A stretch of 39,231 nt of DNA from Anaerolineaceae bacterium 4572_78 (GTDB lineage: Bacteria > Chloroflexota > Anaerolineae > 4572-78). A program made the translations under genes and the position numbers. Each line of letters opens with the position of its first letter. Positions within the stretch are counted from its first letter, which is position 1. Positions 2,579-37,783 of the stretch are shown in pieces. A model generated the notes under the pieces. The model was not told the DNA's origin. It worked only from the letters and a program-made list of their open reading frames with translations, and did no database searches. The stretch spans positions 1 through 39,231 of the forward strand of contig NBMH01000013.1 of assembly GCA_002084875.1 (NCBI GenBank). Direction: 5' to 3'.

Positions 2579-3664
2579 TTATTGATTATACGGAATATCC
2601 GATTTATCTACCACCACATCCTTATTTGCTTTGATTTCATAAGGCAACAAATCATCTTCGGTCAAGAATAAATCTGTATTGCCATGACAGCTATCACATG
2701 ATTCTGTCCGTGCTGTATTACGCTGAATGGTATGTGGTGTGGCATACGTCCATGTTGGGCGATTGTCAAAATTGGGCAGTAAATTATCGCCGTAATATGC
2801 AAACGTATCAGGGTCAACAGGTACATGCCGTAAGACCACCCATTTCCAAGGACGCTCTTCACTTTGGATAGGATTATAGCCAATTTTAATATCCATTATG
2901 GATGGCTCTATCTTGAAATAAGGAATATCCTCATCATTTTTTTGTGTATGACAGCTATAGCAGTTTTTATATTCTGCGGCATGGCAAACCTGACAAGAAA
3001 ACTCGCTGATATGTTGCTGATGTTGGGCAATTTCAGAGCCTTCTATCACGTCATTATGGCAATCCAAACAGCTTTTTGATGCAGAACCATCATAACGATG
3101 ATTTGCTTCATAATCCAAATTACCATGCATTTCATCAGCAGTATGACAATTAAAACATGGCATGCCGATTTTATTCCAATGCAAATCTGCCGGGATACCT
3201 TCATTTTTGCCCTTATATTCCATATCAACTCGACTGCCATGACAACCAGTACATGTCAAATTCATTGGCGGTACTTTTTTGAATTTATGTCCCGCAGTAA
3301 GCCCGCCTCCCAAACTCGTCGGGCGGCTAACATGACACTGCCCACAACTGGTATGACAACTCGAACAATGATTGCCGAATGCTTCTTCCTCTATGTGTGC
3401 TAATGTTTCTGCACTGGTTCTATCTTGCAAAACAGTTGTATAACCGCGTAATGAGGAATGTAGACTGTTTGTTTCGTTTGTCATATCAACATGACATTGA
3501 AAACAAACATCTTCAGCCACAGGTTCACGAATTATGTATGTATGGGCTTGTTCTTTATCATCGACCTTTCCGTTACCACCATGACATGTCACACAACCCA
3601 TTTTGCCATGAACAGTTTGAGTAAAACTTTTATCGCTTACGATTACCTTTTCCCAACCCTCCAA
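2579..3664 (-). CDS. Decahaem c-type cytochrome, C-terminal part of an interrupted lipoprotein gene
   Basis: The sequence contains ten CxxCH haem c motifs (CVTCH, CFQCH, CSSCH, CGQCH, CTGCH, CFNCH, CLDCH, CQVCH, CYSCH, CDSCH). It has no signal peptide of its own, and its first possible start is a TTG in PPLEGWEK. It is in the same frame as the lipoprotein fragment at 3683-4054, separated only by a TGA and a few codons. The paralogue at 6268-8715 shows the same order with no stop (CVACHTNQEKL, then PPLETWEKYF, then the next haem), so the two pieces are one 11-haem protein. It is co-linear with the first ten haems of that paralogue, including the GQCHVSRP, EYKG-NEG, RHVPV and NLLPDFDN-like segments. 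Without the N-terminal part the product would not be exported or haem-loaded. Confidence 0.85.
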   Translation of the reverse strand: MEGWEKVIVSDKSFTQTVHGKMGCVTCHGGNGKVDDKEQAHTYIIREPVAEDVCFQCHVDMTNETNSLHSSLRGYTTVLQDRTSAETLAHIEEEAFGNHCSSCHTSCGQCHVSRPTSLGGGLTAGHKFKKVPPMNLTCTGCHGSRVDMEYKGKNEGIPADLHWNKIGMPCFNCHTADEMHGNLDYEANHRYDGSASKSCLDCHNDVIEGSEIAQHQQHISEFSCQVCHAAEYKNCYSCHTQKNDEDIPYFKIEPSIMDIKIGYNPIQSEERPWKWVVLRHVPVDPDTFAYYGDNLLPNFDNRPTWTYATPHTIQRNTARTESCDSCHGNTDLFLTEDDLLPYEIKANKDVVVDKSDIPYNQ

Positions 3665-3682
3665 CGGAGGGACAGAGCCACC

Positions 3683-4054
3683 TCAGCCTTCACCTTCGGA
3701 CAGTTCTTCAATATCTTCTATTTCTTCTGCCGTAGCAATAAGCCTTTCTCGATTGGTGTGGCAATCAATACAACTATCATCAACAAGTAACATCACCGCC
3801 ATGGTGGTAGGTGTTGGCAATAGAACTACTATTTCTTCTACCTCAATTGGTTCCAAAGTAGGAATGAGTGTTGGTGATGAGACAGGGATAGGTGTCGGCG
3901 ATGGAATGACTGCCTCTCCTATCTCCGTTGGCTTTGGAGTAGGGATAGATGTTGGTGTTGTGCCACATCCTATCACCAGCCCCGCCATGATAAAAATGAG
4001 AACTATCGTTATATTCATTTTTGAAAACTTATATAGTTTGTTTAAGTATTTCAT
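3683..4054 (-). CDS. Multihaem cytochrome lipoprotein, N-terminal fragment ending at an in-frame TGA
   Basis: The ATG at 4054 has AGGAG at a good distance. The N-terminus is a lipoprotein signal with lipobox LVIGC, followed by a Thr/Pro/Ile linker of about 60 residues. One haem motif, CIDCH, sits in a CIDCHTNRERL context matching the first haem of the 21-haem paralogue. The frame ends EELSEGEG at a TGA and continues in frame as GGSVPPLEGWEK into the decahaem ORF at 2579-3664. TGA ends several intact genes in the window, for example those at 15385 and 28484, so it is a normal stop here. This is therefore a nonsense lesion, readthrough, or a base error. It is the last gene of the redox operon, about 90 bp after the NrfD-like gene. 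Confidence 0.8.
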   Translation of the reverse strand: MKYLNKLYKFSKMNITIVLIFIMAGLVIGCGTTPTSIPTPKPTEIGEAVIPSPTPIPVSSPTLIPTLEPIEVEEIVVLLPTPTTMAVMLLVDDSCIDCHTNRERLIATAEEIEDIEELSEGEG

Positions 4055-4146
4055 CAATTTACTCCTAATTAAAGATTACAGAAGTGCAGTTAAGATTCCC
4101 ATCTCCCGTGCTGGGGAGTGAGAACGGTTACAAACAATTTTTATCC

Positions 4147-5385
4147 TTATGGCAACTTAGGCTGTGGTTCATGGTGTTCAGAAAAAACATTCAAGTAACG
4201 TGCAGCCAATGCGAAACTAGCCACGCCTATAGTTACCAAAGTAATGGTCACTGAAATTTCTCGCAAAGTTGGCATGTAGACTAGACCAGTATAATCTAAC
4301 AAACCAAATATGCTAACATTTAACCTATTTAGAATTATGCCAAATACAGTTAAAGATGCCGCCGTAACCACTACGCTTAATTTTGAGCGTAGCGTTGGAA
4401 TGCTAAATAAAATTATCGGAACGACGCTACCTAATAAAATCTCTAGCCAGAAAGACATGGTTATCCAACGCGGTTGGAAAGCATATTCCCACACGCCATG
4501 ACTTGTCAAACTACCCAAGCGTAGTACTAGATAGAATATCAATACCAAACCACTATATTTGCCTAATTCGGCTAATAAATCAACTTGCGGTTTGTGATGG
4601 GCTAATCTACCACTAATGATATTTTCTACCGTCACCATTGCTGGTCCAACTGCTACGGCTGAAACGAAGAACAATACAGGTAACATGGGTGTCCACCACA
4701 ATGGGTGTAACTTGCCAGGCATTATTACGTACAACGACCCCAATGATGATTGGTGCATCGTGGATAGTGTAATGCCCAATACAACAAATAGCGGTGTAAG
4801 CCATTCCACAATTCTGAGCGGCCACTTAAAAGGTAGCTTCTCCAAGACCATTGGACTAAATTCTAAAGCCAATATGGTGTTATAAACTGACACACACCAA
4901 CCTAACTCAAACATAACCGAAGTGTGTTGCCAATAAAGCAACGGATGCCAAATGCGGTAGGGTCGTCCTAAGTCAAAAATCAGTCCGCCGACTACCAACA
5001 GGTATCCCAAAAAAGCGGTCAAGATAGCAGGTCTAAGCATGCCGTGAAACCGCTCAACACGGAAGACATGCACTAGTCCAGCCATTACAAATCCCCCAGC
5101 AGCTAGGGCAACTCCACAGAGCATATCAAAACCAATCCAGATTCCCCATGGAAAATTGTCGTTCATGCCCGAAACAGGTCCAAGGCCTTGCGTAAAGCGA
5201 ACGAGTGCTGTGGATGTGAACGTCACCCAAAAGGGTAAAAAGATTGCTGCTAACAAAATAACCTTGGTTGACCATTTGGCAACATGATGTTGCCCCATCA
5301 ACCATAAAATGATGTAAAAAACTACACATGTAACTACTAAAGGCAAAACAATTTGCCAAATTATTGTGAAAAGTAAGTTTGTCAT
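4147..5385 (-). CDS. NrfD/HybB-type polytopic membrane subunit
   Basis: The protein is hydrophobic, about 410 residues, with about ten membrane segments. It includes GxGPVSGMNDNFPWGIWIGFD-like and FDLGRPYRIWHPLLYWQ-like signatures of the HybB/NrfD/PsrC group. These subunits carry a quinone site and pass electrons to or from a periplasmic ferredoxin subunit, sometimes with proton translocation. I chose the ATG at 5385 because it lies 10 bp after the stop of the ferredoxin gene. A longer GTG start at 5433 would overlap that gene by 38 bp and add a polar stretch. The neighbours are its expected Fe-S partner upstream and a multihaem lipoprotein downstream. The substrate side of the complex is unknown. 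Confidence 0.88.
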   Translation of the reverse strand: MTNLLFTIIWQIVLPLVVTCVVFYIILWLMGQHHVAKWSTKVILLAAIFLPFWVTFTSTALVRFTQGLGPVSGMNDNFPWGIWIGFDMLCGVALAAGGFVMAGLVHVFRVERFHGMLRPAILTAFLGYLLVVGGLIFDLGRPYRIWHPLLYWQHTSVMFELGWCVSVYNTILALEFSPMVLEKLPFKWPLRIVEWLTPLFVVLGITLSTMHQSSLGSLYVIMPGKLHPLWWTPMLPVLFFVSAVAVGPAMVTVENIISGRLAHHKPQVDLLAELGKYSGLVLIFYLVLRLGSLTSHGVWEYAFQPRWITMSFWLEILLGSVVPIILFSIPTLRSKLSVVVTAASLTVFGIILNRLNVSIFGLLDYTGLVYMPTLREISVTITLVTIGVASFALAARYLNVFSEHHEPQPKLP

Positions 5386-5395
5386 AATTCGATTA

Positions 5396-6265
5396 TCACT
5401 CTTTCTGGCGACCAGTGAACCAAGTTGTGCCACTCATAGCCAGAGCCATACCTGCTGCAACAATAGGGACATTTTTCAAAATATTCCAAGTAAGTGGCGG
5501 TAATGGTTCATTTATTATATCAGTGCGAAAACCTAATTTTTCAAATGGAACTGGTGAAATATACAACACACTTGTTCCGCCCGCCTCATGCTCACCATAA
5601 ATCTTATCAAAATAACGATCAGGATTGTCCTTGATACGGGCTTTGGCAATTGCTAAGACTCGCTCTCTAGTGCCAAACTCTAATGTGCCGACTGGACAAG
5701 CCTCCACGCAAGCTGGTGCGAGCCCTTGTTCACGCCTGTCTCGACATAAAGTACATTTGCCAATCATCGGTGTTAGACCACTTTGCCAATCAAAATGTGG
5801 CACATCAAAAGGACATGCTAACATACAGTAGCGACAGCCCATACACAAATCTACATCATAAACCACTGCCCCTTCGGATGTTTGGTGCAATGCTCCCACC
5901 GGGCATGCTGACGCACAAGCAGGTTCCAAGCAGTGCATACATTGCCGCTTAACTGAATAAACGGGGGACTCGCCCGATGAAATTGGCACCGCTGCACTAT
6001 CAATATAAGTCCATGTATCGAAAGTCCAATCTGTTGGTTCGGTTGAGACTGGAGGTAAATTATTCGACTCTTTACAAGCACGACTACAAGCCCCACAGTT
6101 GACACAACGGGTAATATCTATCAGCCAACCAAACCGTTCTCCGATAACACCCTCTGAAGCTGCCACGTCAATTGTTTGGCTCATTGCCATTGACACAGCT
6201 GAAAAACCCATTAGTTTCAAAAAGTCACGCCGCGAACGTTGCGTCTGCGAATCTTCTATCTTCAT
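5396..6265 (-). CDS. Tat-exported 4Fe-4S ferredoxin-type subunit (HybA/HmcB-like)
   Basis: The N-terminus has a twin-arginine motif, SRRDFLK, and a hydrophobic stretch, so the folded protein is exported. Four cysteine clusters follow: CVNCGACSRAC, CMHCLEPACASACP, CMGCRYCMLACP and CTLCRDRREQG...CVEACP, giving four [4Fe-4S] sites in the HybA/NrfC/DsrO/HmcB pattern. A C-terminal hydrophobic helix (about residues 262-282) anchors it at the membrane. A strong ribosome site, AAGGAGGATTAATC, precedes the ATG at 6265. The stop of the 21-haem cytochrome gene lies 2 bp upstream, so translation is coupled. It should relay electrons between the NrfD-like membrane subunit and the multihaem cytochromes. 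Confidence 0.92.
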   Translation of the reverse strand: MKIEDSQTQRSRRDFLKLMGFSAVSMAMSQTIDVAASEGVIGERFGWLIDITRCVNCGACSRACKESNNLPPVSTEPTDWTFDTWTYIDSAAVPISSGESPVYSVKRQCMHCLEPACASACPVGALHQTSEGAVVYDVDLCMGCRYCMLACPFDVPHFDWQSGLTPMIGKCTLCRDRREQGLAPACVEACPVGTLEFGTRERVLAIAKARIKDNPDRYFDKIYGEHEAGGTSVLYISPVPFEKLGFRTDIINEPLPPLTWNILKNVPIVAAGMALAMSGTTWFTGRQKE

Positions 6266-6267
6266 GA

Positions 6268-8715
6268 TTAATCCTCCTTATGACCTGTCCATGTCATAAT
6301 TCCTAAAATGATAACCGCACCTAAGAAACCACCAATTCCCAAGCCTACACCTAAAGACGAAACTACACTATTTTGTAGCAAGGTTACTCGTGATTCCAAA
6401 TTAGCCTGGTCTTCTAGTATCTCAATGGCAACTTGGGTTGCTTCAGGAGGTGCGGCTTGGGTAGCAACAACCTCTCGGCTAAGATGAGCTTCTTCGTCAT
6501 GGCAATTAGCACATGTTTCTGTCCCCACAAACAAGCTATGACCTACTGCACCTGTCCCACCAATCTGACCGATAGAAGTATCAGGATGAGGCATGTGACA
6601 ATCTATGCAATCCGTTGTTTGATGAGTATTATGAGTGAAATTATCTTCTATATCGCTATGACACGTAATGCACAATTTTTCTTTAGGTAAACGAGTGTCT
6701 GGTTTATGACGCTCATGACAATTGATACAATTAATATTATTTTCAGCATGTGCCCCAATTCGCCATTCATTATGAGTAAATTCATGGCAATCGATGCACA
6801 CACTTTGGTCTACAGGAATAGACATGGTAGTGTCATCATTTTCGCCATGCCCTTCCACCAGGTTGTTGTGGCAGGCAACACAATCAACATTCGCGAAAGC
6901 ATATTCGCCGCTATCCTTGTCATAACCTGTAGTATGACAACGTAAACATTCACCAAAGTATTCTTCCTTTTCCCAAACTTGCAAGAAGTTTTCATTTTTA
7001 GCGGCGACAGAATGATTAGACATAGCCCATTCCTCCACTTCAGTTTGGTGACACTCGTAACATTCGACACTTGCCATTTCATCTTCACTTAGTTTATATC
7101 TAATGGTAGTTGTCTCTGGTACAATCGGAGTAATTTCTACATCTGGCGTAGCTGTCGGATTCACTGGAATTTCTTTAGCATCCTCAGCCAGTTCATGACA
7201 TAATTGGCAATCATCCACCGCAAAATCGTTATGTCCACCTGGAAACTTTGGAGCACCTATTCCATTTTGGTGACAGAAAAAACAATCACTCATGTTTTTC
7301 AAGGTATGAGGAATCGGGTTCGGCACACCAACTTGATGACAGCTAGTACAATTGCTATATCCTTCCAACGGGTGAACGATGGAGGCCGCTTCAGCCTGTC
7401 CTAGTTCACCTGCCATTTTGGGCAACCTTGATACAACTACTTTAGCATTGCTCGTAACTTCAGCCTGAGCAATATCTTTAGGTTGCAAAAACAAGTCAGG
7501 CTCACTATGACAATTTCCACATGTTTCATTTTGTGGCGTGATTTTCTGAATATTATGGGGGGATGTACCTTTCCAAGTAGGTACATTGTCAAAATCTGGC
7601 AACAGGTTATTGCCATAAGCGGCAAAGGTATCAGTTGTTACTGGCACATGACGCACCAATTGGTATGTCCATGGATGTTTTTCAGTCGGATTAGCATTGA
7701 GTCCAATCTTGAAATCCAACTGCATAGAGTCAAGGGTCATACCTTCTTCATCACTAACATGACAACCTGAACAATTGGTATATGCTCCCGCAGAGTGGCA
7801 TACTTGACAAGCTACCTCCTCATGTATTTGGTGTTGTTCCACATCAGAATCAGTTAAATCATGGCAATCAGTACAATTTAGTACGCTTTCACGACTATTG
7901 GTATACGTTTGACCATCGCCATGCATTTCACCTATTTTATGACAAGAATTACAGTCCATTTCCGCCTGGCTCCAATGCACATCGGGCAATACACCTTCAT
8001 TCTGTCCTTTGTATTCAGCCACAACTACACTTCCATGACAGCTTTCGCAAACCATATCTTCGGGCGTGTTGATAAAAAACTCATGACCCTTAATCAAACC
8101 ACCTCCCATAGAATCAGGGCGACTGACATGGCATTGCCCACAATCGGCATTAAATTTACCATCAAAGGCACGGAACATGTTAGGGTTAGCCAAATTTGCA
8201 CCTCTAGCTGTAAGTGCATTTGTCATACCCGCTACATTAAAATGCGAACTACTACCAGTCACATCAGTTATTTTTGGATGGCAATCTCCACAACTTTCTA
8301 TCGGGGTGGCTGATGGCGATTTAATGAGGTCAGTGTGAGCTTCAGTGAAATCATCTGTTCCGCCTACACCCGCATGACAATTCACACAACCCCTCACATT
8401 GTGCATCCCCAAAACGCCAACGTCGGGAATAAAATATTTTTCCCATGTTTCTAGGGGCGGCAAGTCACCGCTAAAGATATTCAATGTGGGGCTGACTTCA
8501 TCTTCATTGACGAGAGATTGTAACTTTTCTTGATTGGTATGGCAAGCAACACAATTGTCGCTAGGCTCATTTCCTTGAGCTAGGGCGAGTGTAGAAAAAT
8601 CTATTCCCCCCCAACCAAATAAAAAAAACACTCCTATTACTATCATAACTTTGATATGTCTTAGCTTGTCAGGCTTCCACACCTGACCTACATTTGATTT
8701 TGAGTAATTATGCAT
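6268..8715 (-). CDS. 21-haem membrane-anchored cytochrome c (Hmc-like)
   Basis: Twenty-one CxxCH motifs can be counted, from CVACH near the N-terminus to CANCH near the C-terminus. There is an N-terminal signal or anchor segment (MIVIGVFFLFGWGG) and a C-terminal transmembrane helix followed by GHKED. The first ten haems are co-linear with the lipoprotein cytochrome at 2579-4054. A Thr/Pro/Val linker separates a second haem block (haems 14-21) with CYECH and GHGENDD-type spacing. I chose the ATG at 8715 because it has an AAAGGATG ribosome site and lies after a promoter at 8779-8806; the longer frame from 8859 would begin upstream of that promoter. As first gene of the operon it probably acts as the periplasmic electron wire of an Hmc/Tmc-type complex, though HmcA of Desulfovibrio has 16 haems. 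Confidence 0.9.
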   Translation of the reverse strand: MHNYSKSNVGQVWKPDKLRHIKVMIVIGVFFLFGWGGIDFSTLALAQGNEPSDNCVACHTNQEKLQSLVNEDEVSPTLNIFSGDLPPLETWEKYFIPDVGVLGMHNVRGCVNCHAGVGGTDDFTEAHTDLIKSPSATPIESCGDCHPKITDVTGSSSHFNVAGMTNALTARGANLANPNMFRAFDGKFNADCGQCHVSRPDSMGGGLIKGHEFFINTPEDMVCESCHGSVVVAEYKGQNEGVLPDVHWSQAEMDCNSCHKIGEMHGDGQTYTNSRESVLNCTDCHDLTDSDVEQHQIHEEVACQVCHSAGAYTNCSGCHVSDEEGMTLDSMQLDFKIGLNANPTEKHPWTYQLVRHVPVTTDTFAAYGNNLLPDFDNVPTWKGTSPHNIQKITPQNETCGNCHSEPDLFLQPKDIAQAEVTSNAKVVVSRLPKMAGELGQAEAASIVHPLEGYSNCTSCHQVGVPNPIPHTLKNMSDCFFCHQNGIGAPKFPGGHNDFAVDDCQLCHELAEDAKEIPVNPTATPDVEITPIVPETTTIRYKLSEDEMASVECYECHQTEVEEWAMSNHSVAAKNENFLQVWEKEEYFGECLRCHTTGYDKDSGEYAFANVDCVACHNNLVEGHGENDDTTMSIPVDQSVCIDCHEFTHNEWRIGAHAENNINCINCHERHKPDTRLPKEKLCITCHSDIEDNFTHNTHQTTDCIDCHMPHPDTSIGQIGGTGAVGHSLFVGTETCANCHDEEAHLSREVVATQAAPPEATQVAIEILEDQANLESRVTLLQNSVVSSLGVGLGIGGFLGAVIILGIMTWTGHKED

Positions 8716-8778
8716 AAAACATCCTTTTTTCAATTCAACTACATAACTTCTAAATTCTATAAAAAACCATATATCTGC

Positions 8779-8806
8779 ATTATAACTAAATTGCCTAAAT
8801 TGTCGA
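8779..8806 (-). promoter_or_regulatory. Promoter of the redox operon
   Basis: Read on the minus strand, TCGACA (8801-8806) is one mismatch from the -35 consensus. A 16-bp spacer and a perfect TATAAT (8779-8784) follow. The start of transcription would be near 8772, about 57 nt before the ATG at 8715. Confidence 0.6.
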
Positions 8807-8848
8807 AATCGGCATGAAAAATTATCTTGCCAAACTGCATAATATATA

Positions 8849-8978
8849 GGGCTGTTCAATGCTATTTTTTGACAAGATAACTTGGAGGGTCAAAGCTTGC
8901 TTTGACATGAAAAAGCAAGCGATTTGATGCTCCATAAATATCCCAAGCCATTGTTTTTGTTTTAGCATTAAACAGCCC
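8849..8978 (-). mobile_element. MITE-like palindromic element, copy 1
   Basis: The ends GGGCTGTTCAATGCTA (8849-8864) and TAGCATTAAACAGCCC (8963-8978) are inverted repeats. The interior holds tttgacatgaaaaagcaag and aaatatcccaagccat, also found in the copies at 30886-31014 and 36861-36986. The element is about 130 bp, has no gene of its own, and lies between the redox operon promoter and treS. A MITE with no transposase in the window is the best reading. Confidence 0.8.
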
Positions 8979-9018
8979 TCGGTGAACGGTTGCGTTAGGT
9001 TCAGTGGATAATTGCATG

Positions 9019-12306: not shown

Positions 12307-12912
12307 TTACAAAATAGTTAATAAAATTGTTAGCAATTCATCTAAACTCTTTGGAATCGGATAGAGGTTCATGTCTTGTGTAATGACTTTCGTTTGCCGA
12401 TTAAGTACACTAAATTGCCATGCATTTCCCATTGTCACTGTTCCATAAATAGGTTTTTCGTCGTCGTCAAGCCATTTATCCATGGCAATCAATTCGACGG
12501 AAAGTTGAGTAAAGCCCCGTTGCAAATCGCCTCTTTTTGCTTCGACAATCAAGACATTATGTTTACGTTGCATGAAATAGTCGATTTTGCCCTTGAGTTG
12601 ATGATTCACTTTCATGGGATATTCGACTCTTAGTTGTATGTTTAAGTAAATCGCTAATCTCACCAATACAGGAGCAATCAGAGTCTCCCTACGGGCAATT
12701 TCTGTATTCAAATCAACATGACGAAGTGAATCCTCCAATAGCGTTTTTAAACCGACAAAAGCTTGTATGTCAATGGTACTTTTAGGAAAATCATATTTTT
12801 CCACCTGACGACTATATCCAAAATAATCCAGCAATTCATCAATGGGAGGGTCAAGTTTGAAATAATCGCTAAAGGTGTATGATTTATCTTTGTCAATAAT
12901 TGTCTGTTTCAT
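12307..12912 (-). CDS. Stand-alone PD-(D/E)XK nuclease-like protein (1 of 3)
   Basis: The protein is about 200 residues. After an N-terminal helical half comes RRETLIAPVLVRL, then the core LKGKIDYFM (Asp111) and LIVEAKRG (Glu124, Lys126), the D...ExK signature of the PD-(D/E)XK fold. A Gln in GFTQLSVELIAM and a GTVTMGNAWQFSVL strand follow. The core resembles HsdR N-terminal nuclease domains, but there is no helicase or methylase nearby. I chose ATG 12912, which has AAAGAGG upstream; an earlier ATG at 12963 lacks a ribosome site. Two relatives lie at 19057-19653 and 25196-25807. The biological role is unknown. Confidence 0.75.
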   Translation of the reverse strand: MKQTIIDKDKSYTFSDYFKLDPPIDELLDYFGYSRQVEKYDFPKSTIDIQAFVGLKTLLEDSLRHVDLNTEIARRETLIAPVLVRLAIYLNIQLRVEYPMKVNHQLKGKIDYFMQRKHNVLIVEAKRGDLQRGFTQLSVELIAMDKWLDDDEKPIYGTVTMGNAWQFSVLNRQTKVITQDMNLYPIPKSLDELLTILLTIL

Positions 12913-13105
12913 GATTTGCCTCTTTTCCAGTTTGATTTTGGTCTTTAGGAATCTTATTTGCATGCAATAGCTAAAAATATCACGCTCCGCGATTTTACTT
13001 TAATCTTGTATTATAATGAAACAGTTCCTAAAATCAAAATCACAGGATGAATATGATTGATGGAGAAAATAATGTTAAACGAAACATCACAAAAAGCCCT
13101 TTCTT

Positions 13106-16254: not shown

Positions 16255-17268
16255 TTATCGCCATTTGGCTACAGGACCATGTTTCTGGAAGTTATTTGTA
16301 ACTAATACCAAATCTATTATATCAATAACACCATCTGTATTGAGGTCTAATAAGGGGTCATTCAGATGATAACTATTTGCTATTTGAACAAGGTCAAAAA
16401 TATCGACAATATCATCACTATTTACATCACCAGCAAAAAGGATCATGTCTCCTAAAGTGGCAGTACCTACTCCATCCAAACGAGTGGAAACATCAATTTT
16501 AGCATATAGATAGCCCGGTGCTTTGATGGTTAAAATATCATTACCGTCTGAATAGAATGTACCATCAGGGCTGGTATTGATGATATTGCCACTGTTATCT
16601 ATCAAAGTGATATGACTATAGTTATATCGCCCTTCTAATTGAACTCGACCACTTACAGCACCACATGCGTCTGTTGTGATGGCAACTCCATCAACAACCT
16701 GCACAGTAATCTGTGTGCCTACCATAGGTATAAGTACATTTTTAATGTCAAGGGCAGAACGTCCCACACCAACCTTTTCCCATATAATCTCGACTAAATT
16801 CATGTCGCCGCTTACAGTAGATGTGCCAAGAACAGCAGCTGCAAATTCAATTTTCCCATTCACATTATCCACCTCGTTAAGTGCGATAAATGGGTTTTGA
16901 TTGGCGAATGAGCTACCCAACTTAATTTGTACTCCGTTTTGATTTGGGTCCACATCCACAACATTGACAATACTTGGGTCAAACTCAATTTCAAATTGAA
17001 AACCTTTTACACCATTAGTATTAGTTAATTTCAATGTTGTTTGTTGACTACCAGAACATATATTTACTTCCGGCGGGTCAAATACAACTGTATGACTACC
17101 AACAATAGGTGTTGGATTCACAGGTGTCGGTGTTGTACCCACAGGTGTCGGTGTTGTACCCACAGGTGTCGGTGTTGTACCCACAGGTGTCGGTGTTGTA
17201 CCCACAGGTGTCGGTGTTGTACGAATCCACAGGTGTCGGTGTTGGTACTGTCCCGTCGATAACGACAT
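16255..17268 (-). CDS. Cohesin- and dockerin-type modules, C-terminal part of a frame-broken amidase gene
   Basis: In frame after the break this ORF begins with repeats of TTPTPVG. A cohesin-like beta module follows (VVFDPPEVNICSGSQ, FQFEIEFDPSIVNVVDV; about residues 60-195), then a short carboxypeptidase-regulatory-like domain (GAVSGRVQLEG). The end is a type I dockerin with two calcium loops, DVNSDDIVDIFDLVQIA and DLNTDGVIDIIDLVLVTN. Such modules mediate calcium-dependent protein assembly and also occur on non-cellulosomal surface proteins. There is no signal peptide. The upstream ORF at 17096-18790 supplies one and ends in the same repeat tract in the wrong frame, so both are one gene. The first 15 residues called here read through the upstream frame's DNA and are probably not real. 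Confidence 0.8.
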   Translation of the reverse strand: MSLSTGQYQHRHLWIRTTPTPVGTTPTPVGTTPTPVGTTPTPVGTTPTPVNPTPIVGSHTVVFDPPEVNICSGSQQTTLKLTNTNGVKGFQFEIEFDPSIVNVVDVDPNQNGVQIKLGSSFANQNPFIALNEVDNVNGKIEFAAAVLGTSTVSGDMNLVEIIWEKVGVGRSALDIKNVLIPMVGTQITVQVVDGVAITTDACGAVSGRVQLEGRYNYSHITLIDNSGNIINTSPDGTFYSDGNDILTIKAPGYLYAKIDVSTRLDGVGTATLGDMILFAGDVNSDDIVDIFDLVQIANSYHLNDPLLDLNTDGVIDIIDLVLVTNNFQKHGPVAKWR

Positions 17269-18790
17269 TAACTGATTTTGTTATGTTGGTACACGTTCCA
17301 AAGGTATCATGAGTTGCGTTTACCTTGAAGGTGTGCTTGCCTGATACTGTTGTATCACGAAATACACCTTGATATCTACCTTTTTGGTTCTCCAAATCAA
17401 AATAACCGAGTGTAGCAGTTGAAGTTTCAACAGAAACATCGGCGGTTACACTTGCTCCACCCAATGGAACTCCATTAATATCAGCCACCACTACCACAAA
17501 ATTAATCGTATCATTCAAGTTATATTCCGATTTGTCGAATATAATATCGGTCACTTGGCATTGATTGGCACCGTCACAATTAACTCGGTCAGATACTGCT
17601 TGCCGAAGCCAAGGCATCCAAGTATTGTAAATAATACTGCCTGGTGAGTATGTGTTAGTCACATCTCTAGCACCTGATACACGATAGATATTTTTGCCAT
17701 GATAATTTGCAATTTCTTGGGAGTCGAGTCCATTTTGTCCCAATTTCCAAGAGATTAATTCTACTCCTTTGTTCATCATGATTTGGCGTGGTTGGACGTT
17801 TGATATACCATACTCCAAACAATTTCCATAACATCCGATGAATGCTAAACCAAGCGAGTTTCTATTGTTGGGGATATGTCTTCCAATAATATCTTTTTCA
17901 CCATTTTGGCTACCGGCTCGTCCTTCATAAATTTTCCCTTCAGGGTCAATTAGATAGTTGTAGCCAATATCACCCCAGCCTAATACATTGGTATGATAGT
18001 TCCATACTGAACGCACTACGGTTGGCCAATCAGTAGTTGGACTGTTTTTGGTAACAGTATGAGCAATAATCACATGAGTTACATCAGTTTCATAAGGTGC
18101 CCAGCGAGGGCTATTTTGACCATCAGGAGAACCCCATTCTGTACGACTGATAATACTAGGTTTTTCAGCAGGACAAACATTCAAAGCCGCCGCATTTGCC
18201 GCAGGCAAATCATCGTTAGTGGGACCTTGACTGGTATCGTTGAAAATCAGTGTTAATTCATCTAGGGTAGTATCACCCATTAAGGTTAATCGAATTTGGA
18301 TATGAACCTGCCCTTCATTGCCAAGCCAAACCATAGAACCGCTATAATCACTATCAGAGATAGGATTAAAGGTTACAGGGCTTTCAATCCATTCTTGCCA
18401 TACTGAACCATTATCACTTGTTCGTATTTCTACTTTAACATTATCGCTACTTGCTTTCCAAGTTGGGATAATATCAGTAGTAATTCCGAGTGGTGATTGA
18501 ATAGGCTCACTGGTGTAAGTCCCTTGAGTAGCACCAGCACTAACTGCTAAGCTATTCGCCACCACATCAAGATTTGTCAGTTCGCCTTGTGATTGGAAAT
18601 AGAGCGTGGTTAAGCTCACTTGGCGTGACTGAATGGTGTCATAAGTGCTAGCAGTAAAGAAAAGACCATCATCAGGCTCCTGAGCAAAAGAAATGTTTGC
18701 CCAGAAAAGAACTAAAACAATACTTAAACTAAAACACAAAATTGGATTTAGTCTATAAAAAATTTGATTAAACGTTGTACGTAAATACAT
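17096..18790 (-). CDS. Secreted PGRP/N-acetylmuramoyl-L-alanine amidase, N-terminal part of a frame-broken gene
   Basis: The ATG at 18790 is preceded by GGAGGTAATA; an earlier ATG at 18802 would put that site inside the gene. A signal peptide ends near ANISFAQ. Residues about 60-200 form a beta region. An amidase_2/PGRP domain follows: SRTEWGSPDG, HVIIAHTVT, YNYLIDPEGKIYEGR, LGLAFIGCYG and ARDVTNTYSPG. His in IIAHT fits a zinc ligand of amidases that cut the MurNAc-L-Ala bond; the ACRDVTxxxCPG-type segment has Ser for the usual Cys and retains no His, so activity is uncertain. An Ig-like domain precedes the linker VPTPTPV. The frame then falls into YNTDTCG repeats, a shifted reading of TPTPVGT, and stops. 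A 4-bp insertion in the repeat explains the shift. Confidence 0.85.
   Translation of the reverse strand: MYLRTTFNQIFYRLNPILCFSLSIVLVLFWANISFAQEPDDGLFFTASTYDTIQSRQVSLTTLYFQSQGELTNLDVVANSLAVSAGATQGTYTSEPIQSPLGITTDIIPTWKASSDNVKVEIRTSDNGSVWQEWIESPVTFNPISDSDYSGSMVWLGNEGQVHIQIRLTLMGDTTLDELTLIFNDTSQGPTNDDLPAANAAALNVCPAEKPSIISRTEWGSPDGQNSPRWAPYETDVTHVIIAHTVTKNSPTTDWPTVVRSVWNYHTNVLGWGDIGYNYLIDPEGKIYEGRAGSQNGEKDIIGRHIPNNRNSLGLAFIGCYGNCLEYGISNVQPRQIMMNKGVELISWKLGQNGLDSQEIANYHGKNIYRVSGARDVTNTYSPGSIIYNTWMPWLRQAVSDRVNCDGANQCQVTDIIFDKSEYNLNDTINFVVVVADINGVPLGGASVTADVSVETSTATLGYFDLENQKGRYQGVFRDTTVSGKHTFKVNATHDTFGTCTNITKSVNVVIDGTVPTPTPVDSYNTDTCGYNTDTCGYNTDTCGYNTDTCGYNTDTCESNTYCW
17120..17246 (-). repeat. 21-bp minisatellite coding for a Thr/Pro linker, with a 4-bp insertion
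   Basis: The unit acaggtgtcggtgttgtacc plus c (21 bp) repeats at 17120, 17141, 17162, 17183 and 17204 without mismatch. The next unit boundary carries an extra gaat (17223-17226) before ccacaggtgtcggtgttgg. Removing those four bases would restore one continuous Thr-Pro-Thr-Pro-Val-Gly frame between the amidase and cohesin parts. Confidence 0.92.
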
Positions 18791-18961
18791 TATTACCTCC
18801 ATACATCTAAAAATATTAACTTAATCTTGTTTCAATTTTAACACTAAATGGAGGTAATCCTCAACGATAGCAACGCTGATTTCAGTTGGGTAAAAATGTC
18901 TAATAGGGTTTGAGTATTAACACGGAATGAGATATTGTTCCATCTAAAATAATACATTATC

Positions 18962-19056: not shown

Positions 19057-19653
19057 ATGGCATACAGTAAATTTACTTTAGAGAAAGTTCAAAAAGATTT
19101 TCAGTTAGGATTTCAAGAGGATTTATCCTTATTTGTTGATACACCCATCAAAAAAATTAGTGGCTTTTTGCAACAGACATTGCAAGAAAATATTTCTTTA
19201 GCCACAGCCATAGATACAGAAAAAGTGCGTTCAGAATTGATTGTTGCTCCCATATTAGTTGAATTAAGAAAAATATCTCACAAAAACATTAGCTTTTTTT
19301 CAGGGATTAAATTTAATGTTGATTCCTCAAAAGAGCTAGATGGCTTTTGTGATTTTTTAATAAGCAGGTCTAAAAATCAATTAAGTTTGCAGACTCCTAT
19401 TGTTAGTGTAGTTGAGGCGAAAAATGACAATATCAAAAGTGGATATGGGCAATGTATTTCCATGATGATTGCCAGCCGTATTTTCAATGAAAGGGAAAAA
19501 AATACAATTGAGACAATGCATGGTGTCGTTACCACAGGCACAGTATGGAAATTCCTCAAGTTAATTGATAATGTGGTTTACGTTGACCATGATGAATATC
19601 ACATCAACCAGGTCGAGAAAATCATGGGGATTTTGGTCAGTGTTTGTGAATAA
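19057..19653 (+). CDS. Stand-alone PD-(D/E)XK nuclease-like protein (2 of 3)
   Basis: The protein is 198 residues. The plan matches its relatives at 12307 and 25196: a helical N-terminal half, RSELIVAPILVEL, then LDGFCDFLI (Asp99) and SVVEAKND (Glu120, Lys122), the D...ExK core of PD-(D/E)XK nucleases. GYGQCISMMIAS follows, then GVVTTGTVWKFLKL. The start has an optimal ribosome site, AAGGAGGTTCGC, before ATG 19057, with a promoter at 18962-18990 and a perfect palindrome over the start site. No partner methylase, helicase or antitoxin is adjacent on the same strand. It might act on foreign DNA or in repair, but this cannot be read from the sequence. Confidence 0.75.
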   Translation: MAYSKFTLEKVQKDFQLGFQEDLSLFVDTPIKKISGFLQQTLQENISLATAIDTEKVRSELIVAPILVELRKISHKNISFFSGIKFNVDSSKELDGFCDFLISRSKNQLSLQTPIVSVVEAKNDNIKSGYGQCISMMIASRIFNEREKNTIETMHGVVTTGTVWKFLKLIDNVVYVDHDEYHINQVEKIMGILVSVCE

Positions 19654-22156: not shown

Positions 22157-23721
22157 CCTTTGTAATGAATGGTAATATTAGCGTTCGGGTCAGGTGTTGC
22201 TGTTGGTACTGGAGTAACAGGGGTTGCATTTGCAGCATAGAAAGCTACGGCTGAACCAGCTGCTACAGTGATATTAGCGGTACCATCGCCATTTACGGTT
22301 ACGGTATTGCCTGTACAATTGCCGTTGTCCAAATCACCGCTGATGATGTCGCAATATGTACCAGCTGCCATGCCAGTTTGGAAGCTTTGACTTAACTCGC
22401 TACCTTCTTTATTTATCGCCACAAATCCCTTGTCACCTCGACTAAAGGAAATTTGGTCATTGCCATTGTCCCACCAATTAGAGACGGGTTGACCACTGGT
22501 TATATTACGGAACATGACCATATTAGCAATTGGTCGCCAGCGATGCTCGCATACCCAACCGCGCACACTATCATCAGTGTGTCCGAAACAACCAAGTGAT
22601 TCCACACTTTGTATTGACCCATCGACATTTTGTGGGGGACCTTGGTCGCTATCATCAAATTCGTAGCTAGACATGACCTTCGGATAGCCATAAGGCCAAG
22701 CAAGCATAAATATGTTGGTTAAATCATACAGTGAACTGTCTTTATAAGTGATGACATGTCCACCGCCGCCATGACCACGTTGGTTGTCATGATTGTCTAC
22801 AAAAACAACACCTTTATCATCAGGCATGAAGCCCCAGTCTACGCCAAAATTGCTTAGCCATGACAGTTGTCCACTGTAGAAAGCTTCGCTAATTTTGACA
22901 CTATACTTAAACTCAGTTACATCACCATTTTGGAAATATAAGTCGGCAGTAATTGGCTCGCCGCCTTGGTCAATCACTTCTTGGAAAATGTAAGGGTCGC
23001 CATCAAGTTTAGCAATGATAGCGTTAATATCACCTGTTGCCATGTGCTTAGAGGCATCCAAACGAAAACCTGCTACGCCAAGACTAATGAGGTCATTCAT
23101 GTAAGCCGCAATTTTATCTTGCACATAACCTGTATCGGTTGCCAAGTCGGTCAAGTTGACCAATTCGCAATTTTGTACTTCCCATACATCTTGGTAATTA
23201 CTAATATCATCATTACCATTGCGTCCACAATGATGGAAATTATCAGTACCATATCCTGTTGATGGGTAATGATATTCCCAATATTGAGTACCATTGTATC
23301 CCGAGCTAGAACCTACGCCAGTCATGTGATTGATGATTGCATCTACGTAGATATCAACACCAACCGCATTACAGCGTGATACCATGTTGGTAAATTCGGC
23401 CCGTGTGCCACTGCGTGACTCAATTTCATAACTAACGGGTTGATAGCGGAGCCACCATGGATAAGAACCACCTTGATTAAACCAAGCATGTTCCATTGGT
23501 GGAGAAACTTGAACCGCAGAGAACCCTTTGGGACCTAAAACATCTTCACATTCTTGAGCAATGTCTGTCCACTTCCATTCAAAGAGATGAACAAATGCTG
23601 TACGAGGAGCCTCTTGAGCTTTGACCACTTCATCTTGAGGCAGGCTCAAGGTGGCGATTAGAGGCACCATTAAAACAAGTAAAAATTTTATTAGAGAACG
23701 AAAATTAAAACGTGATTTCAT
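22108..23721 (-). CDS. Secreted animal-type alpha-amylase (GH13), frame broken at the C-terminal binding module
   Basis: A signal peptide ends near VVKAQEA. The catalytic domain is of the animal type (GH13_24/32): VHLFEWKWTDIAQECE, GFSAVQVSPP and YVDAIINHM. It has nucleophile Asp222 in GFRLDASKHM, Glu248 in FQEVID, Asp312 in VDNHDNQRGHG and a Gly-rich loop RGHGGGGH. It hydrolyses alpha-1,4 links of starch outside the cell. A C-terminal beta domain is followed by the linker TPVTPVPTATPDPNA and the first strand of a starch-binding module (ITIHYKGW), after which the frame runs out. The pullulanase ORF continues in another frame at exactly this module. AAAGGAG precedes ATG 23721. Animal-type amylases are scattered in bacteria and may reflect transfer. 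Confidence 0.9.
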   Translation of the reverse strand: MKSRFNFRSLIKFLLVLMVPLIATLSLPQDEVVKAQEAPRTAFVHLFEWKWTDIAQECEDVLGPKGFSAVQVSPPMEHAWFNQGGSYPWWLRYQPVSYEIESRSGTRAEFTNMVSRCNAVGVDIYVDAIINHMTGVGSSSGYNGTQYWEYHYPSTGYGTDNFHHCGRNGNDDISNYQDVWEVQNCELVNLTDLATDTGYVQDKIAAYMNDLISLGVAGFRLDASKHMATGDINAIIAKLDGDPYIFQEVIDQGGEPITADLYFQNGDVTEFKYSVKISEAFYSGQLSWLSNFGVDWGFMPDDKGVVFVDNHDNQRGHGGGGHVITYKDSSLYDLTNIFMLAWPYGYPKVMSSYEFDDSDQGPPQNVDGSIQSVESLGCFGHTDDSVRGWVCEHRWRPIANMVMFRNITSGQPVSNWWDNGNDQISFSRGDKGFVAINKEGSELSQSFQTGMAAGTYCDIISGDLDNGNCTGNTVTVNGDGTANITVAAGSAVAFYAANATPVTPVPTATPDPNANITIHYKGWSAGMVIVSMKQVLT

Positions 23722-25195: not shown

Positions 25196-25807
25196 TTATT
25201 CTTTTGCTACCTGTTTCTCACATTCGGTGAAAATATAATCCAAAATACCCAAGACTCTAGCTGGGTCACTAATTGAATATGACCATAAGTTTTTAGTGAA
25301 AACATCTTTCTCTAGTTTACCAAATTCCCAAAACATGCCAGTACAAACAATGCCGTAAACAACCACATTTTCATCATTATTTAATTTTTGACAAGCGAGC
25401 ATAGTAGCCAGGCATTGCCCCCAACCTTCGATGAAATCTTCTTGCTTTGCTTCGGACACCGCCAAAAGAGGTTTACCAACAGGTGTTGTTGTGGCACCTC
25501 GTGGGCGAGAGGTAAGAAAATAATCAGGTTCACCAGTTAAAATATCATCATAAGTTAATTTGCGGTTAATCCACAATTTCAGGCTTGAATGTAGTTTCCA
25601 TGCCTGCCGCATAAACGGTGAAATCAATTGTTCTCGAAAGAACATCTCGCTTTCTACAGAAGATTTCATGCTCAAGGAAAATTTTAGCTCCTCCATGAAA
25701 AAATCATGAGGCGTGAGTTGCTCATAAGTTAAAAAATCAGCCTCGGTTACAGCTAAAGGGTATTTAGCTTGAACATCCTCGATGCTCTTAAAATCACTAA
25801 ATGCCAT
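25196..25807 (-). CDS. Stand-alone PD-(D/E)XK nuclease-like protein (3 of 3)
   Basis: The protein is about 203 residues. ATG 25807 has GGAGGTTATT upstream; a longer start at 25819 would bury that site. The core shows FFREQLISPFMRQ, then GEPDYFLT (Asp95) and LAVSEAKQ (Glu119, Lys121), the PD-(D/E)XK signature. GWGQCLATMLACQ and GIVCTGMFWEFGKL follow, both aligned with the relatives at 12307 and 19057. It is the most diverged of the three in its N-terminal half. No partner gene is apparent, so its role is unknown. Confidence 0.75.
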   Translation of the reverse strand: MAFSDFKSIEDVQAKYPLAVTEADFLTYEQLTPHDFFMEELKFSLSMKSSVESEMFFREQLISPFMRQAWKLHSSLKLWINRKLTYDDILTGEPDYFLTSRPRGATTTPVGKPLLAVSEAKQEDFIEGWGQCLATMLACQKLNNDENVVVYGIVCTGMFWEFGKLEKDVFTKNLWSYSISDPARVLGILDYIFTECEKQVAKE

Positions 25808-26006
25808 AATAACCTCCAATTTTTTGAGCCTGACAAAGTTTAAATCGTATCGGGTTTTGTTTTTATATCATGGTTTAGCACAAACGGCAAATAAATCAAG
25901 TTAGAATTTTGCATACTTGATTTGCCATCTAAAACGACGTATGTTATAGTTCCATTAATTCCTCTTTTATGTAGAACAGATTTCTAGTTTGTTCATGGAC
26001 GGATAT

Positions 26007-30843: not shown

Positions 30844-30885
30844 AATAACAATGTCACCGTTTGATAGTTGACTATCCAAGCCCTA

Positions 30886-31014
30886 GGGCTGTTCAATGCT
30901 AAAACAAAGAACATGGCTTGGGATATTTATGGAGCGAAAAATCAAGCTTTTTCATGTCAAAGCAAGCTTTGACGCTCCAATTTGTCTTGTCAAAAAATAG
31001 CATTGAACAGACCT
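30886..31014 (+). mobile_element. MITE-like palindromic element, copy 2 (opposite orientation)
   Basis: The ends GGGCTGTTCAATGCTA and TAGCATTGAACAGACC are inverted repeats 129 bp apart. Read on the minus strand, the interior matches copy 1 at 8849-8978 nearly base for base, including ttttttgacaaga and aaatatcccaagccatg. It contains internal palindromes of the aagcaagctt family followed by gctcc. It lies between a plus-strand membrane protein gene and the minus-strand ABC permease gene. Confidence 0.85.
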
Positions 31015-31895: not shown

Positions 31896-31939
31896 TGTTA
31901 ATCTCCATGCAGGTCAGACATCCTGCCTGTCATACGAGG

Positions 31940-32863: not shown

Positions 32864-32880
32864 AATTTTGGAAAATGAAA

Positions 32881-32934
32881 GTTGGGAGTGCGAAATCTTT
32901 TTCGCTCTTCCGCAAAAGATTACAGACTCCCAAC
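32881..32934. repeat. Inverted repeat between the anti-sigma and ABC genes
   Basis: Arms gttgggagt (32881-32889) and actcccaac (32926-32934) enclose 36 nt that contain a smaller gcgaaa...tttcgc stem. It lies 46 bp downstream of the anti-sigma frame on the minus strand and just upstream of the ABC ATPase gene. It may be a terminator or another dispersed element. Confidence 0.55.
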
Positions 32935-32980
32935 TCGTAATTACTCACTCCCCCTTTTGGGTGAACGGTTACCCTAACTC

Positions 32981-33625
32981 CTAGTCCACCGACTCCGCTA
33001 AAGAAATCAATGTTTCAGTATCATACTTTCCAACAAGCATGTAAGTCATTTCACCTGTTGCCCAAATGATAGTGACATGGTCGTTGTCCGACATTGTCAT
33101 GACTACTCCTGAATTACCACTGATACTAATTTCTGTGGCATCAATATCTTCACCAATGGGAATGGGCAAAATCATGGTATTTTCCCAATCAATAGTACTT
33201 CCCAAAGCAATAGCCTCTATTTTTGGCATGCCTAACAATTGCAATCCCGCTACACCGACAGTAGCTAAATCTAAGTCATCAGGATATTCAAGGTGTGGTG
33301 TGGGCATTTGCACGAACATCAGTTGAGGTGCCTCATGATTTGAGTGAGCGGGTCGTTTACCGCGTTGTTTGCTACGAGGACGTTCACCTTGCATTGAGTT
33401 CAAATCGTCCAAATCAGTTCCCCACATTTGTCCCAGCATGGTCGGCTTGTTAATGACAATTGGTGTATCATCTAACGAAGCTGGCAACTCAATCTCAATT
33501 TTAGCCGATTGGAAAACGGATTGCAATAGTTCACGGTCAAGCATCAAACTAACAATTGATTCTCCATCCACCATTGCCTTAAACTCATCGCCAACATCGG
33601 CAGGTAATTCGGGGATGGATGACAC
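32981..33625 (-). CDS. Extracytoplasmic part of a frame-broken anti-sigma factor
   Basis: The frame encodes 214 residues without signal peptide or membrane segment. It contains repeated acidic and Pro segments (SSIPELPADVGDEF, SLMLDRELLQSVFQ), a basic stretch (RPRSKQRGKRP) and a beta-rich C-terminus (HVTIIWATGEMTYMLVG). In Chloroflexota anti-sigma proteins the region after the membrane helix has this make-up. The frame overlaps the end of the N-terminal ORF (33544-34098) by 82 bp in another frame. The joined product would read PVRAMAGQ and then TVIENEVSSIPELP. No independent ribosome site is seen, so this is the second half of one gene. Confidence 0.7.
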   Translation of the reverse strand: MSSIPELPADVGDEFKAMVDGESIVSLMLDRELLQSVFQSAKIEIELPASLDDTPIVINKPTMLGQMWGTDLDDLNSMQGERPRSKQRGKRPAHSNHEAPQLMFVQMPTPHLEYPDDLDLATVGVAGLQLLGMPKIEAIALGSTIDWENTMILPIPIGEDIDATEISISGNSGVVMTMSDNDHVTIIWATGEMTYMLVGKYDTETLISLAESVD

Positions 33626-34098
33626 TTCATTTTCAATAACTGTCCTGCCATTGCCCGTACGGGAGCAAAGCTAAACAAAATACCGACTACTGCCACGATT
33701 GCAAACGCTGCCAACCATGGCTGATACTGTTTGATAAAACGATTATTCATAAAGAACATTATCCTTTCTTGAATGTGTGTTAAAAAATAAATAAATTGTT
33801 CAACGGAACGAAAAACCGAAGCATCTAGCATAAATTGTAACTCGTCAATGATTGACATGTTAGGCTGGCTCAATTGATGTTGAAACCGATTCCAGCCTGC
33901 ATGGGAAGAGCCCCGCACTGTATTAGGTATAGCTAGGCAATCTAATGCCATGTTTACCGTTTCCGAGTCATAGTTTAGCAAATCAAGTAATGATTGTGCT
34001 TCGACTGACTCGGCTAATAATTGTCGGACTGTCACCATGTCTTGTGGTGATAGTTCTTCATCTAAATAGGCTCGTAATATTGTTTCATCTAAGTGCAT
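33544..34098 (-). CDS. Anti-sigma factor, N-terminal part of a frame-broken gene
   Basis: The N-terminus MHLDETILRAYLDEELSPQDMVTVRQLL is a typical anti-sigma helical domain, in the position of the zf-HC2 domain but without its zinc-binding His/Cys set. A single membrane helix, WLAAFAIVAVVGILFSF, is followed by APVRAMAGQ, the usual boundary. The rest (LLKMKCHPSPN to the stop) is out of frame and unlike the family. The start lies 9 bp after the stop of the ECF sigma gene, with GAGGATGGATA before ATG 34098, so the two form a sigma/anti-sigma operon. Truncation after the membrane helix may leave sigma binding intact but remove the external sensing part. Confidence 0.75.
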   Translation of the reverse strand: MHLDETILRAYLDEELSPQDMVTVRQLLAESVEAQSLLDLLNYDSETVNMALDCLAIPNTVRGSSHAGWNRFQHQLSQPNMSIIDELQFMLDASVFRSVEQFIYFLTHIQERIMFFMNNRFIKQYQPWLAAFAIVAVVGILFSFAPVRAMAGQLLKMKCHPSPNYLPMLAMSLRQWWMENQLLV

Positions 34099-34107
34099 TA
34101 TCCATCC

Positions 34108-34686: not shown

Positions 34687-34751
34687 TATTTATATAACAC
34701 CGCTCAAGATAAGAATAAGACAAAAAATTTACGGAGTGCAAAAAATAGTAA

Positions 34752-35525: not shown

Positions 35526-35553
35526 TCCACGAACTTCAGGGAATTTGATATAG

Positions 35554-36309: not shown

Positions 36310-36356
36310 GATTTAACGACATAATAGGTGTAATTATCTATAATCTTCCATCAAAA

Positions 36357-36707: not shown

Positions 36708-36860
36708 AATTATCCTTAATTATCCTTTCTAAACACAAAATTTGTACCTGAAACCCATTATACCACACAACGCCCTATTTCCAAAATCACAACAAGGCAA
36801 GGTATATTTGCAATTTACAACATGGGGAGTAAATTTAGTCAAAAGACTGTTTGGAATGTA

Positions 36861-36986
36861 GGGCTGTTCAAAACTTGTTTTGACATGAAAAAGCAAGTTG
36901 TTTCGCTCCATTATGCGACCATGTGATTGAAAATCATGTCGAAAAATATCCCAAGCCATGTTTTTTGTTTTAGCATTAAACAACCC
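36861..36986 (-). mobile_element. MITE-like palindromic element, copy 3 (diverged)
   Basis: The right end TAGCATTAAACAACCC (36971-36986) and the adjacent aaatatcccaagccatg match copies 1 and 2. The left end keeps gggctgttca but lacks about 25 bp of the usual left arm, and a gcgaccatgtgattgaaaat insert is present in the centre. It lies between the Trypco1 gene and the zinc-ribbon locus and has the same orientation as copy 1. Confidence 0.8.
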
Positions 36987-36996
36987 TACACTCCTC

Positions 36997-37401
36997 CTAC
37001 TCCCAATAAAAGGTTAATGTTTCACTTGAAGGACTAATTTGAACACCTTCATTATTTTCTACATGTACATGCCAATGATACGCTCGTCCAGTTGATTGGT
37101 CAGCTTTACCGTAATAATCTCGAGGAACTATCCAGGCGGGTTCCTTCACATTGGCACCACCAAAAGAAGTTTCACCATTTTCCATCCAACTCAATCGAAC
37201 CGCATACCATTCATCAGAAGCAAGTGCACCTTCGACATGCCATTCCAAATTAATGATTTCCTCCGTTGCATAATGAGGACTATCACGCTTAGTCAATACA
37301 GGTTTTTCAAAACGTAGAGCGGGCGTGGGAATTACTGTCGGAGTTGAGGTTGGAAAAGGTGTCGGTGTAAATGTCGGTGGCGGTGTGAAAGTGGGCAACA
37401 A
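36997..37401 (-). CDS. Fibronectin-III-like C-terminal part of a frame-broken zinc-ribbon membrane protein
   Basis: The ORF encodes 134 residues: a Thr/Pro linker (PTFTPPPTFTPTPFPT) and one beta-sandwich domain. The domain has INLEWHVEG, DEWYAVRLSW, RAYHWHVHVEN and a last strand SETLTFYWE. In Chloroflexota such FN3-like ends (WxPV-DEWY-V-YYWRVxV-S-E-FxW) close exported or membrane proteins with Pro/Thr linkers. There is no signal peptide. The upstream ORF at 37307-37783 carries zinc ribbon, membrane helix and linker and overlaps this one in another frame inside an Ile-Pro-Thr-Asn/Asp repeat. They are one gene with a frameshift near 37486-37492. Confidence 0.72.
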   Translation of the reverse strand: MLPTFTPPPTFTPTPFPTSTPTVIPTPALRFEKPVLTKRDSPHYATEEIINLEWHVEGALASDEWYAVRLSWMENGETSFGGANVKEPAWIVPRDYYGKADQSTGRAYHWHVHVENNEGVQISPSSETLTFYWE

Positions 37402-37783
37402 TGCGATTTTTGTTGGTGTCGGAATATCGGTTGGAATATTGGTCGGGATATCGGTTGGAATATTGGTCGGGATATTGGTCGGGATATAACGTAGAAGTGT
37501 GTGTTAACGTCGGGGTAGGTGTTTCAGTGGCAGGGTCAACCATAGATACAACCTGTTTGGATGTGTGTTCAATTTGTTCTACAGTTTGTTCTATGTTTGG
37601 GATATAACTTTGATAGGCGAAAAAGCCAATTCCTGCCAAAATAATAATCATTCCCCATGTCAAATAGGGGAAAGATACCGATTCTAAATTTGAGCCACAA
37701 TTCGGACAAACATGGAATATATCACGTGTCTTATGACCACATTTTTTACATCGAATAAAACGTACTGAGCTTACTTTAGCCAT
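37307..37783 (-). CDS. Zinc-ribbon membrane protein, N-terminal part of a frame-broken gene
   Basis: ATG 37783 has AGGAGTAAACAC upstream; a longer frame from 37906 has no site. The N-terminal zinc ribbon uses Cys12, Cys15, Cys26 and Cys29 (RCKKCGHKTRDIFHVCPNCG), then a membrane helix (WGMIIILAGIGFFAYQSYI) and a linker ETPTPTLTHTSTL. The frame then reads YPDQYPDQYSNRY, a shifted reading of Ile-Pro-Thr-Asn repeats, and ends in Asp/Asn/Thr-rich sequence. The 24-bp units (ggaatattggtcgggatatc plus ggtt) at about 37431-37490 code for the linker. The shift of one base separates the FN3-like domain at 36997-37401. Confidence 0.7.
   Translation of the reverse strand: MAKVSSVRFIRCKKCGHKTRDIFHVCPNCGSNLESVSFPYLTWGMIIILAGIGFFAYQSYIPNIEQTVEQIEHTSKQVVSMVDPATETPTPTLTHTSTLYPDQYPDQYSNRYPDQYSNRYSDTNKNRIVAHFHTATDIYTDTFSNLNSDSNSHARSTF

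Follow-up and report, generated by a model that had tools for sequence, protein, structure and literature searches.

Known cytochrome systems and the locus in the window

A 2026 inventory of 119 selenoprotein families includes only two kinds of cytochrome, ExtKL and the tetrathionate reductase family octaheme cytochrome (TIGR04315), the latter listed from GenBank annotation (PMC13188914). ExtKL of Geobacter (NF040886) is a predicted selenocysteine (Sec)-containing cytochrome with 5 hemes, which is encoded in the extHIJKLMNOPQS cluster and has been linked to selenite and tellurite reduction (PMC5877670). A further system of interest is the Hmc complex of sulfate reducers, to which we return with the neighbouring genes. 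The stretch of DNA analysed here (the window; 39,231 nucleotides of contig NBMH01000013.1 from the draft assembly of Anaerolineaceae bacterium 4572_78) carries a multiheme cytochrome gene that shares features with each of these systems. The locus comprises the following features:

221-1246, minus strand: exported two-domain rhodanese protein whose C-terminal tail is LPSTGG-like (Pfam Rhodanese, 1.7e-28)
2579-4018, minus strand: 11-heme lipoprotein cytochrome gene with one predicted Sec, its internal TGA being read through (lipobox LVIGC, 11 CxxCH motifs, one in-frame TGA)
3656-3672, minus strand: predicted bacterial SECIS hairpin with stem CCCUCC/GGAGGG (3666-3671 with 3657-3662) and loop GUU (3663-3665), from covariation, frozen wobble positions and energy
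3683-3685, minus strand: predicted Sec codon TGA, residue U112 when numbering starts with the ATG at 4018, conserved in homologues
4147-5433, minus strand: NrfD/HmcC-like quinone-interacting membrane subunit (Pfam NrfD, 7.2e-28; NCBIfam HmcC, 316 bits, below the cut-off of 550)
5396-6265, minus strand: HmcB-like 4Fe-4S subunit with a twin-arginine-like signal (NCBIfam HmcB, 278 bits, below the cut-off of 420)
6268-8859, minus strand: larger multiheme paralogue, in which Phe replaces Sec and the hairpin is absent (sequence comparison with a relative in genome G002)

A possible alternative start of the Sec cytochrome gene is a TTG further upstream, at 4057. Like ExtKL, the product is a multiheme c-type cytochrome with a single predicted Sec, encoded near a rhodanese-like protein (ExtH in Geobacter) and redox partners. 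Unlike ExtKL it has 11-13 rather than 5 hemes across the family, the window protein has no match to NF040886 at E up to 0.1 (0 of 56 family members at 1e-5), and no ExtI-like porin was seen among the recurrent neighbours of the gene. Some family members match ExtM or ExtN weakly, below cut-off, as is typical of heme-rich proteins. What TIGR04315 and the window protein have in common is a Sec, predicted in the latter, in a multiheme cytochrome that is extracytoplasmic and associated with sulfur compounds; here too a search at E up to 0.1 gave no match, and the heme number differs.

No NCBIfam model (June 2026) scored above its cut-off with the Sec cytochrome. Foldseek comparison of an AlphaFold2 model (mean pLDDT 75) with the PDB gave no fold match and a PDB sequence search gave nothing significant, so that structure is uninformative on function. 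No Sec multiheme cytochrome from Anaerolineae or Chloroflexi was found in the open literature, subscription papers and GenBank annotations being outside the scope of that search. The family, which occurs in Chloroflexota and Acidimicrobiia, is apparently undescribed, and its novelty is provisional.

Conservation of the in-frame TGA

The first-pass annotation of this DNA had reported five interrupted genes in the window, and six-frame translation and base-level views of the sequence found all five interruptions present. Their grouping is wrong, however, because the five sites have two unrelated causes. We consider it very probable that the TGA of the cytochrome gene is a Sec codon accompanied by a SECIS element and that the other four breaks reflect sequence lost or misjoined in the draft assembly. 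Of the options that had been offered for all five sites (switching, gene decay or assembly error), assembly error is the best reading for four, and none of the three fits the TGA. A comparison with relatives, which had also been proposed, separates the sites in the same way: the four breaks are private and the relatives intact, whereas the TGA is common to nearly every homologue examined.

The TGA had been placed at 3680 but lies at 3683-3685 on the minus strand. When the neighbouring multiheme cytochrome was used as a query, every homologue returned held an in-frame TGA. In all 22 family members from related genomes, including the single-contig, 99%-complete genomes G045 and G151, the codon has an identical location, namely between the first two CxxCH motifs, and the motif around it in these members is glycine-rich, mostly GxG-TGA-[GA]G. 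Scanning species genomes yielded 440 relatives; the best 80 were taken, and 79 of these could be mapped at the Sec site. By title, the records belong mostly to Chloroflexota (Anaerolineae, Dehalococcoidia, Ardenticatenia and others), and several belong to Acidimicrobiia or other Actinomycetota. The mapped sites consist of 77 TGA codons, one TGG (homologue L069) and one TTG (L088). Two alignments of the family were made, one of 22 homologues and a second of 56 members.

The TGA might instead be a common nonsense mutation or an artefact of sequencing, in favour of which the TGG of L069 is one substitution away. This explanation is extremely improbable, given the TGA in 22/22 and 77/79 homologues (the latter from the best 80 of 440 relatives), the covarying hairpin described below, and the presence of tRNA-Sec and SelA in the genome. 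In L069 the hairpin has been kept, and the TGG there therefore looks like a recent change or an error.

The replacements seen at the Sec position are Trp (L069), Leu (L088), and Phe or His in the large paralogue; Cys was found neither at the 79 mapped sites (best 80 of 440 relatives) nor in the 22 members. Cys-form homologues are usual for bacterial selenoproteins, though not required. That Sec is almost never replaced, and in this sample never by Cys, suggests a chemistry beyond that of sulfur. Within the large paralogue, Sec appears to have been lost repeatedly without a Cys form (Phe in the window, His in G020), and the relative in G002 retains the TGA. One further member (L086) comes from a bin named Candidatus Thorarchaeota and has a Chloroflexota-like hairpin; its contig is possibly misplaced.

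A predicted SECIS hairpin downstream of the TGA

The hairpin lies 17 nt 3' of the TGA and has a stem of 6-7 bp and an energy of about -10 kcal/mol. Bacterial SECIS elements are described as having an apical loop of 3-9 nt with G in the first two positions, a stem of 4-16 bp, a distance of 16-37 nt from the TGA, and an energy of at most -7.5 kcal/mol (PMC13188914). The window hairpin falls within these limits in loop, stem, spacing and energy, and an energy at or below -7.5 kcal/mol was obtained for 76 of the 79 homologues mapped among the best 80 of 440 relatives.

The consensus is SSCUCC-GUU-GGAGSS, with G at the first or second position of the loop, and the two outer pairs covary among C-G, G-C and G-U. 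In the hairpin alignment 92.2% of cells are paired, compared with about 50% in slid controls, and the covariation score of 0.303 (0.084 in shuffles) was reached by none of 500 shuffles. Inside the hairpin, 76-77 of 77 sequences agree at the third codon positions, whereas wobble positions beyond it vary. The large paralogue in the window, with Phe at the Sec position, serves as an internal control and lacks the hairpin; its relative in G002 has kept both TGA and hairpin, and in L088, with Leu at the site, the hairpin is weakened. Judging from these sequences, Sec loss and hairpin decay go together.

Selenocysteine machinery

The genome to which the window belongs contains matches to tRNA-Sec (66.5 bits) and SelA (555.8 bits). 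In the sole SelB of the assembly (locus L028, contig C61), about 121 nt are lost out of frame, which splits the gene, so that decoding of the TGA as Sec is putative in the window strain itself. Besides this loss, the selB gene (5281-7079 of that locus) has a Pro/Ser/Lys-rich in-frame insertion resembling an interspersed repeat.

Among 21 genomes with the Sec cytochrome family, tRNA-Sec was found in 17 and SelB in 18; those without a tRNA-Sec match (4/21) or a SelB match (3/21) are all incomplete drafts. All 11 high-quality genomes among the 21 have both, SelB is intact in relatives, and several members of Acidimicrobiia type come with strong tRNA-Sec matches as well. Since tRNA-Sec is common across the phylum, this co-occurrence is weak evidence when taken alone and is consistent with Sec insertion rather than decisive. 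Decoding of the TGA as some other amino acid was rejected on the basis of the SECIS hairpin, tRNA-Sec and SelA. From the conserved codon, the hairpin and the co-occurring machinery we infer that the TGA is a Sec codon. The cytochrome gene is not broken.

Neighbouring genes and proposed function

In the window, the NrfD and 4Fe-4S genes lie directly upstream of the Sec cytochrome gene. As in the Hmc complex, a multiheme cytochrome is clustered with HmcB-like 4Fe-4S and HmcC-like NrfD subunits; HmcA has 16 hemes and is not known to contain Sec. Unlike in the Hmc complex, all scores are under the NCBIfam cut-offs (HmcA, NF045713, 20.2 bits against 400), and an NrfD gene is close by in only 13 of the 79 loci mapped among the best 80 of 440 relatives. 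In these same 79 loci the most frequent partner is a rhodanese-domain protein encoded nearby on the same strand (61 loci), and other neighbours are a LysR regulator (31) and a 4Fe-4S subunit (28). The exported rhodanese protein at 221-1246 is related to this usual partner. In G151, the gene next downstream of the Sec cytochrome has four rhodanese-domain matches.

CxxCH motifs number 11 in the window protein, about 10-13 in complete relatives and about 20 in a larger branch. Some 11 further His residues are conserved outside these motifs, which is enough for a second ligand to each heme, and the Sec is thus predicted to be a free reactive group and not a heme ligand.

We propose that the SECIS hairpin recruits SelB and tRNA-Sec to the TGA. 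Full-length translation would then yield a lipoprotein cytochrome of 11 hemes, whose Sec sits in a glycine-rich loop separating heme 1 from heme 2. The likely role of this protein is that of an outer-face redox unit in a quinone-linked module with the NrfD-like and 4Fe-4S subunits. Its selenol might handle sulfane sulfur, or another chalcogen, delivered by the secreted rhodanese, and exchange electrons with the heme chain. Sulfane-sulfur/chalcogen redox chemistry is proposed because the gene arrangement resembles that of ExtH and ExtKL of Geobacter; the assignment is tentative, with chances somewhat short of even. On an equally cautious footing, the cytochromes could form a widespread, undescribed selenoprotein family, extracytoplasmic and rhodanese-paired, with 11-13 hemes (and a branch with about 20), one Sec and no Cys form, which would serve as a selenium-dependent module for sulfane-sulfur/chalcogen respiration in Chloroflexota and Acidimicrobiia. 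What resembles a stop codon arising from damage is very probably a conserved recoding site in many environmental genomes. An extracytoplasmic electron-transfer system of Anaerolineae and their relatives is predicted to need selenium, and standard gene calling is predicted to cut the cytochrome gene in two.

Four frame breaks private to the draft assembly

The remaining interruptions in the window are:

17223-17226, minus strand: ATTC insertion and frame change beside a 21-bp array, in an amidase/cohesin/dockerin-type gene (16255-18802); frames of relatives open
22149-22150, minus strand: junction in an amylase-pullulanase gene (20018-23721), with 91 nt of a starch-binding module missing (blastn against the intact C84 paralogue)
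33634-33635, minus strand: junction in an anti-sigma gene (32981-34098), with about 58 residues missing after the membrane helix (alignment with four relatives)
37485-37492, minus strand: frame change bordering a 12/24-bp array, in a zinc-ribbon gene (36997-37846) that about 18 relatives have intact

The positions given by the first-pass annotation agree closely with these. Its 4-bp insertion in the amidase gene was found as ATTC, and the frame changes that it put at about 33640 and 37490 were seen at about 33634 and 37489. The frame change that it reported at about 22150 is present at 22149, where its cause is not a slip but the 91-nt loss relative to the intact paralogue. A sixth break, considered possible at 30778, is unsupported, since in weakly similar relatives the frame is open and of comparable size (about 235-375 aa, against 266 aa here). 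Single open frames are present in relatives for the zinc-ribbon protein (about 18 genomes), the anti-sigma factor, the amidase and an amylopullulanase. Two starch-binding modules of the amylase-pullulanase gene (21884-21987 and 22046-22149) have 104 identical bases in common, and the first half of the module present in the C84 paralogue is missing from both.

One proposed explanation was slippage-driven on/off switching of exported proteins, in which changes of repeat length in linkers would shift genes in and out of frame. All four broken products are exported or membrane-bound, and two of the four breaks (amidase and zinc-ribbon) are located in linkers at tandem arrays, of 21 bp and 12/24 bp. 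The array units, however, are multiples of 3, so that gain or loss of a unit is frame-neutral, contrary to switching. About 91 nt are missing from the amylase gene and about 175 nt from the anti-sigma gene, and neither lesion is a slip of a short unit; relatives have intact single frames; and the same lesions are found in cytoplasmic genes (see below). Switching is accordingly very improbable.

To gauge how often frames are broken in this assembly, stretches totalling 881 kb (182 kb covered by homology) were compared with proteins of G151 and other relatives. Out-of-frame losses were found in selB, gyrB, a cystathionine gamma-synthase-like gene, a sigma factor and a C4 gene, and a penicillin-binding protein has a frame change too; names other than gyrB and selB were assigned by reading the sequences. 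The gyrB loss (contig C21) amounts to 31 residues (91 nt), and lost lengths vary by site from about 86 to 250 nt. When G151, a complete genome, was scanned reciprocally (158 kb covered), two frame changes came up, and in neither case was conserved sequence clearly lost. The observation that only exported or membrane products are broken therefore holds inside the window but is wrong genome-wide, given the lesions in cytoplasmic genes. The same lesion pattern in unrelated types of gene points to missing segments of the assembly.

Real decay, in which the four genes together with selB, gyrB and others would be recent pseudogenes in this strain, also predicts that relatives are intact and the window genome is not, and selB has a second, in-frame gap as well as its insertion. 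This explanation is unlikely, if less so than switching: gyrB and a core methionine-pathway-like enzyme are among the genes hit, every lesion is a short loss within a frame that is otherwise well preserved, and the assembly is fragmented (252 contigs) with the bin 81.6% complete. A second intact gyrB homologue occurs on C151, and the gyrB loss would thus not be lethal by itself. We conclude that the four breaks are private to the draft assembly and probably represent sequence lost or misjoined, not a switch and probably not real decay. Where frameshifts cluster in one draft genome, a check of its housekeeping genes should precede any proposal of switching.

Other features of the window

Scans of the window with Rfam (gathering scores) and for tRNA genes gave no matches. 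The small proteins at 12307-12963, 19057-19653 and 25196-25819 have similar ..EAK.. cores; they appear to be paralogues and are perhaps nuclease-like. Two short hairpin repeats (19666 and 23773) are located near genes of these small proteins. The lipoprotein at 34752-35603 matches the Hedgehog N-terminal signalling domain (Pfam HH_signal, 3.1e-23) and is probably a peptidase of a related bacterial fold. Intergenic copies of a MITE- or REP-like interspersed palindrome (TAGGGCTGTTTAATGCTAAAACAAA...), about 120-135 bp long and occurring in both orientations, are found at 8848-8982, 30882-31014 and 36868-36988.
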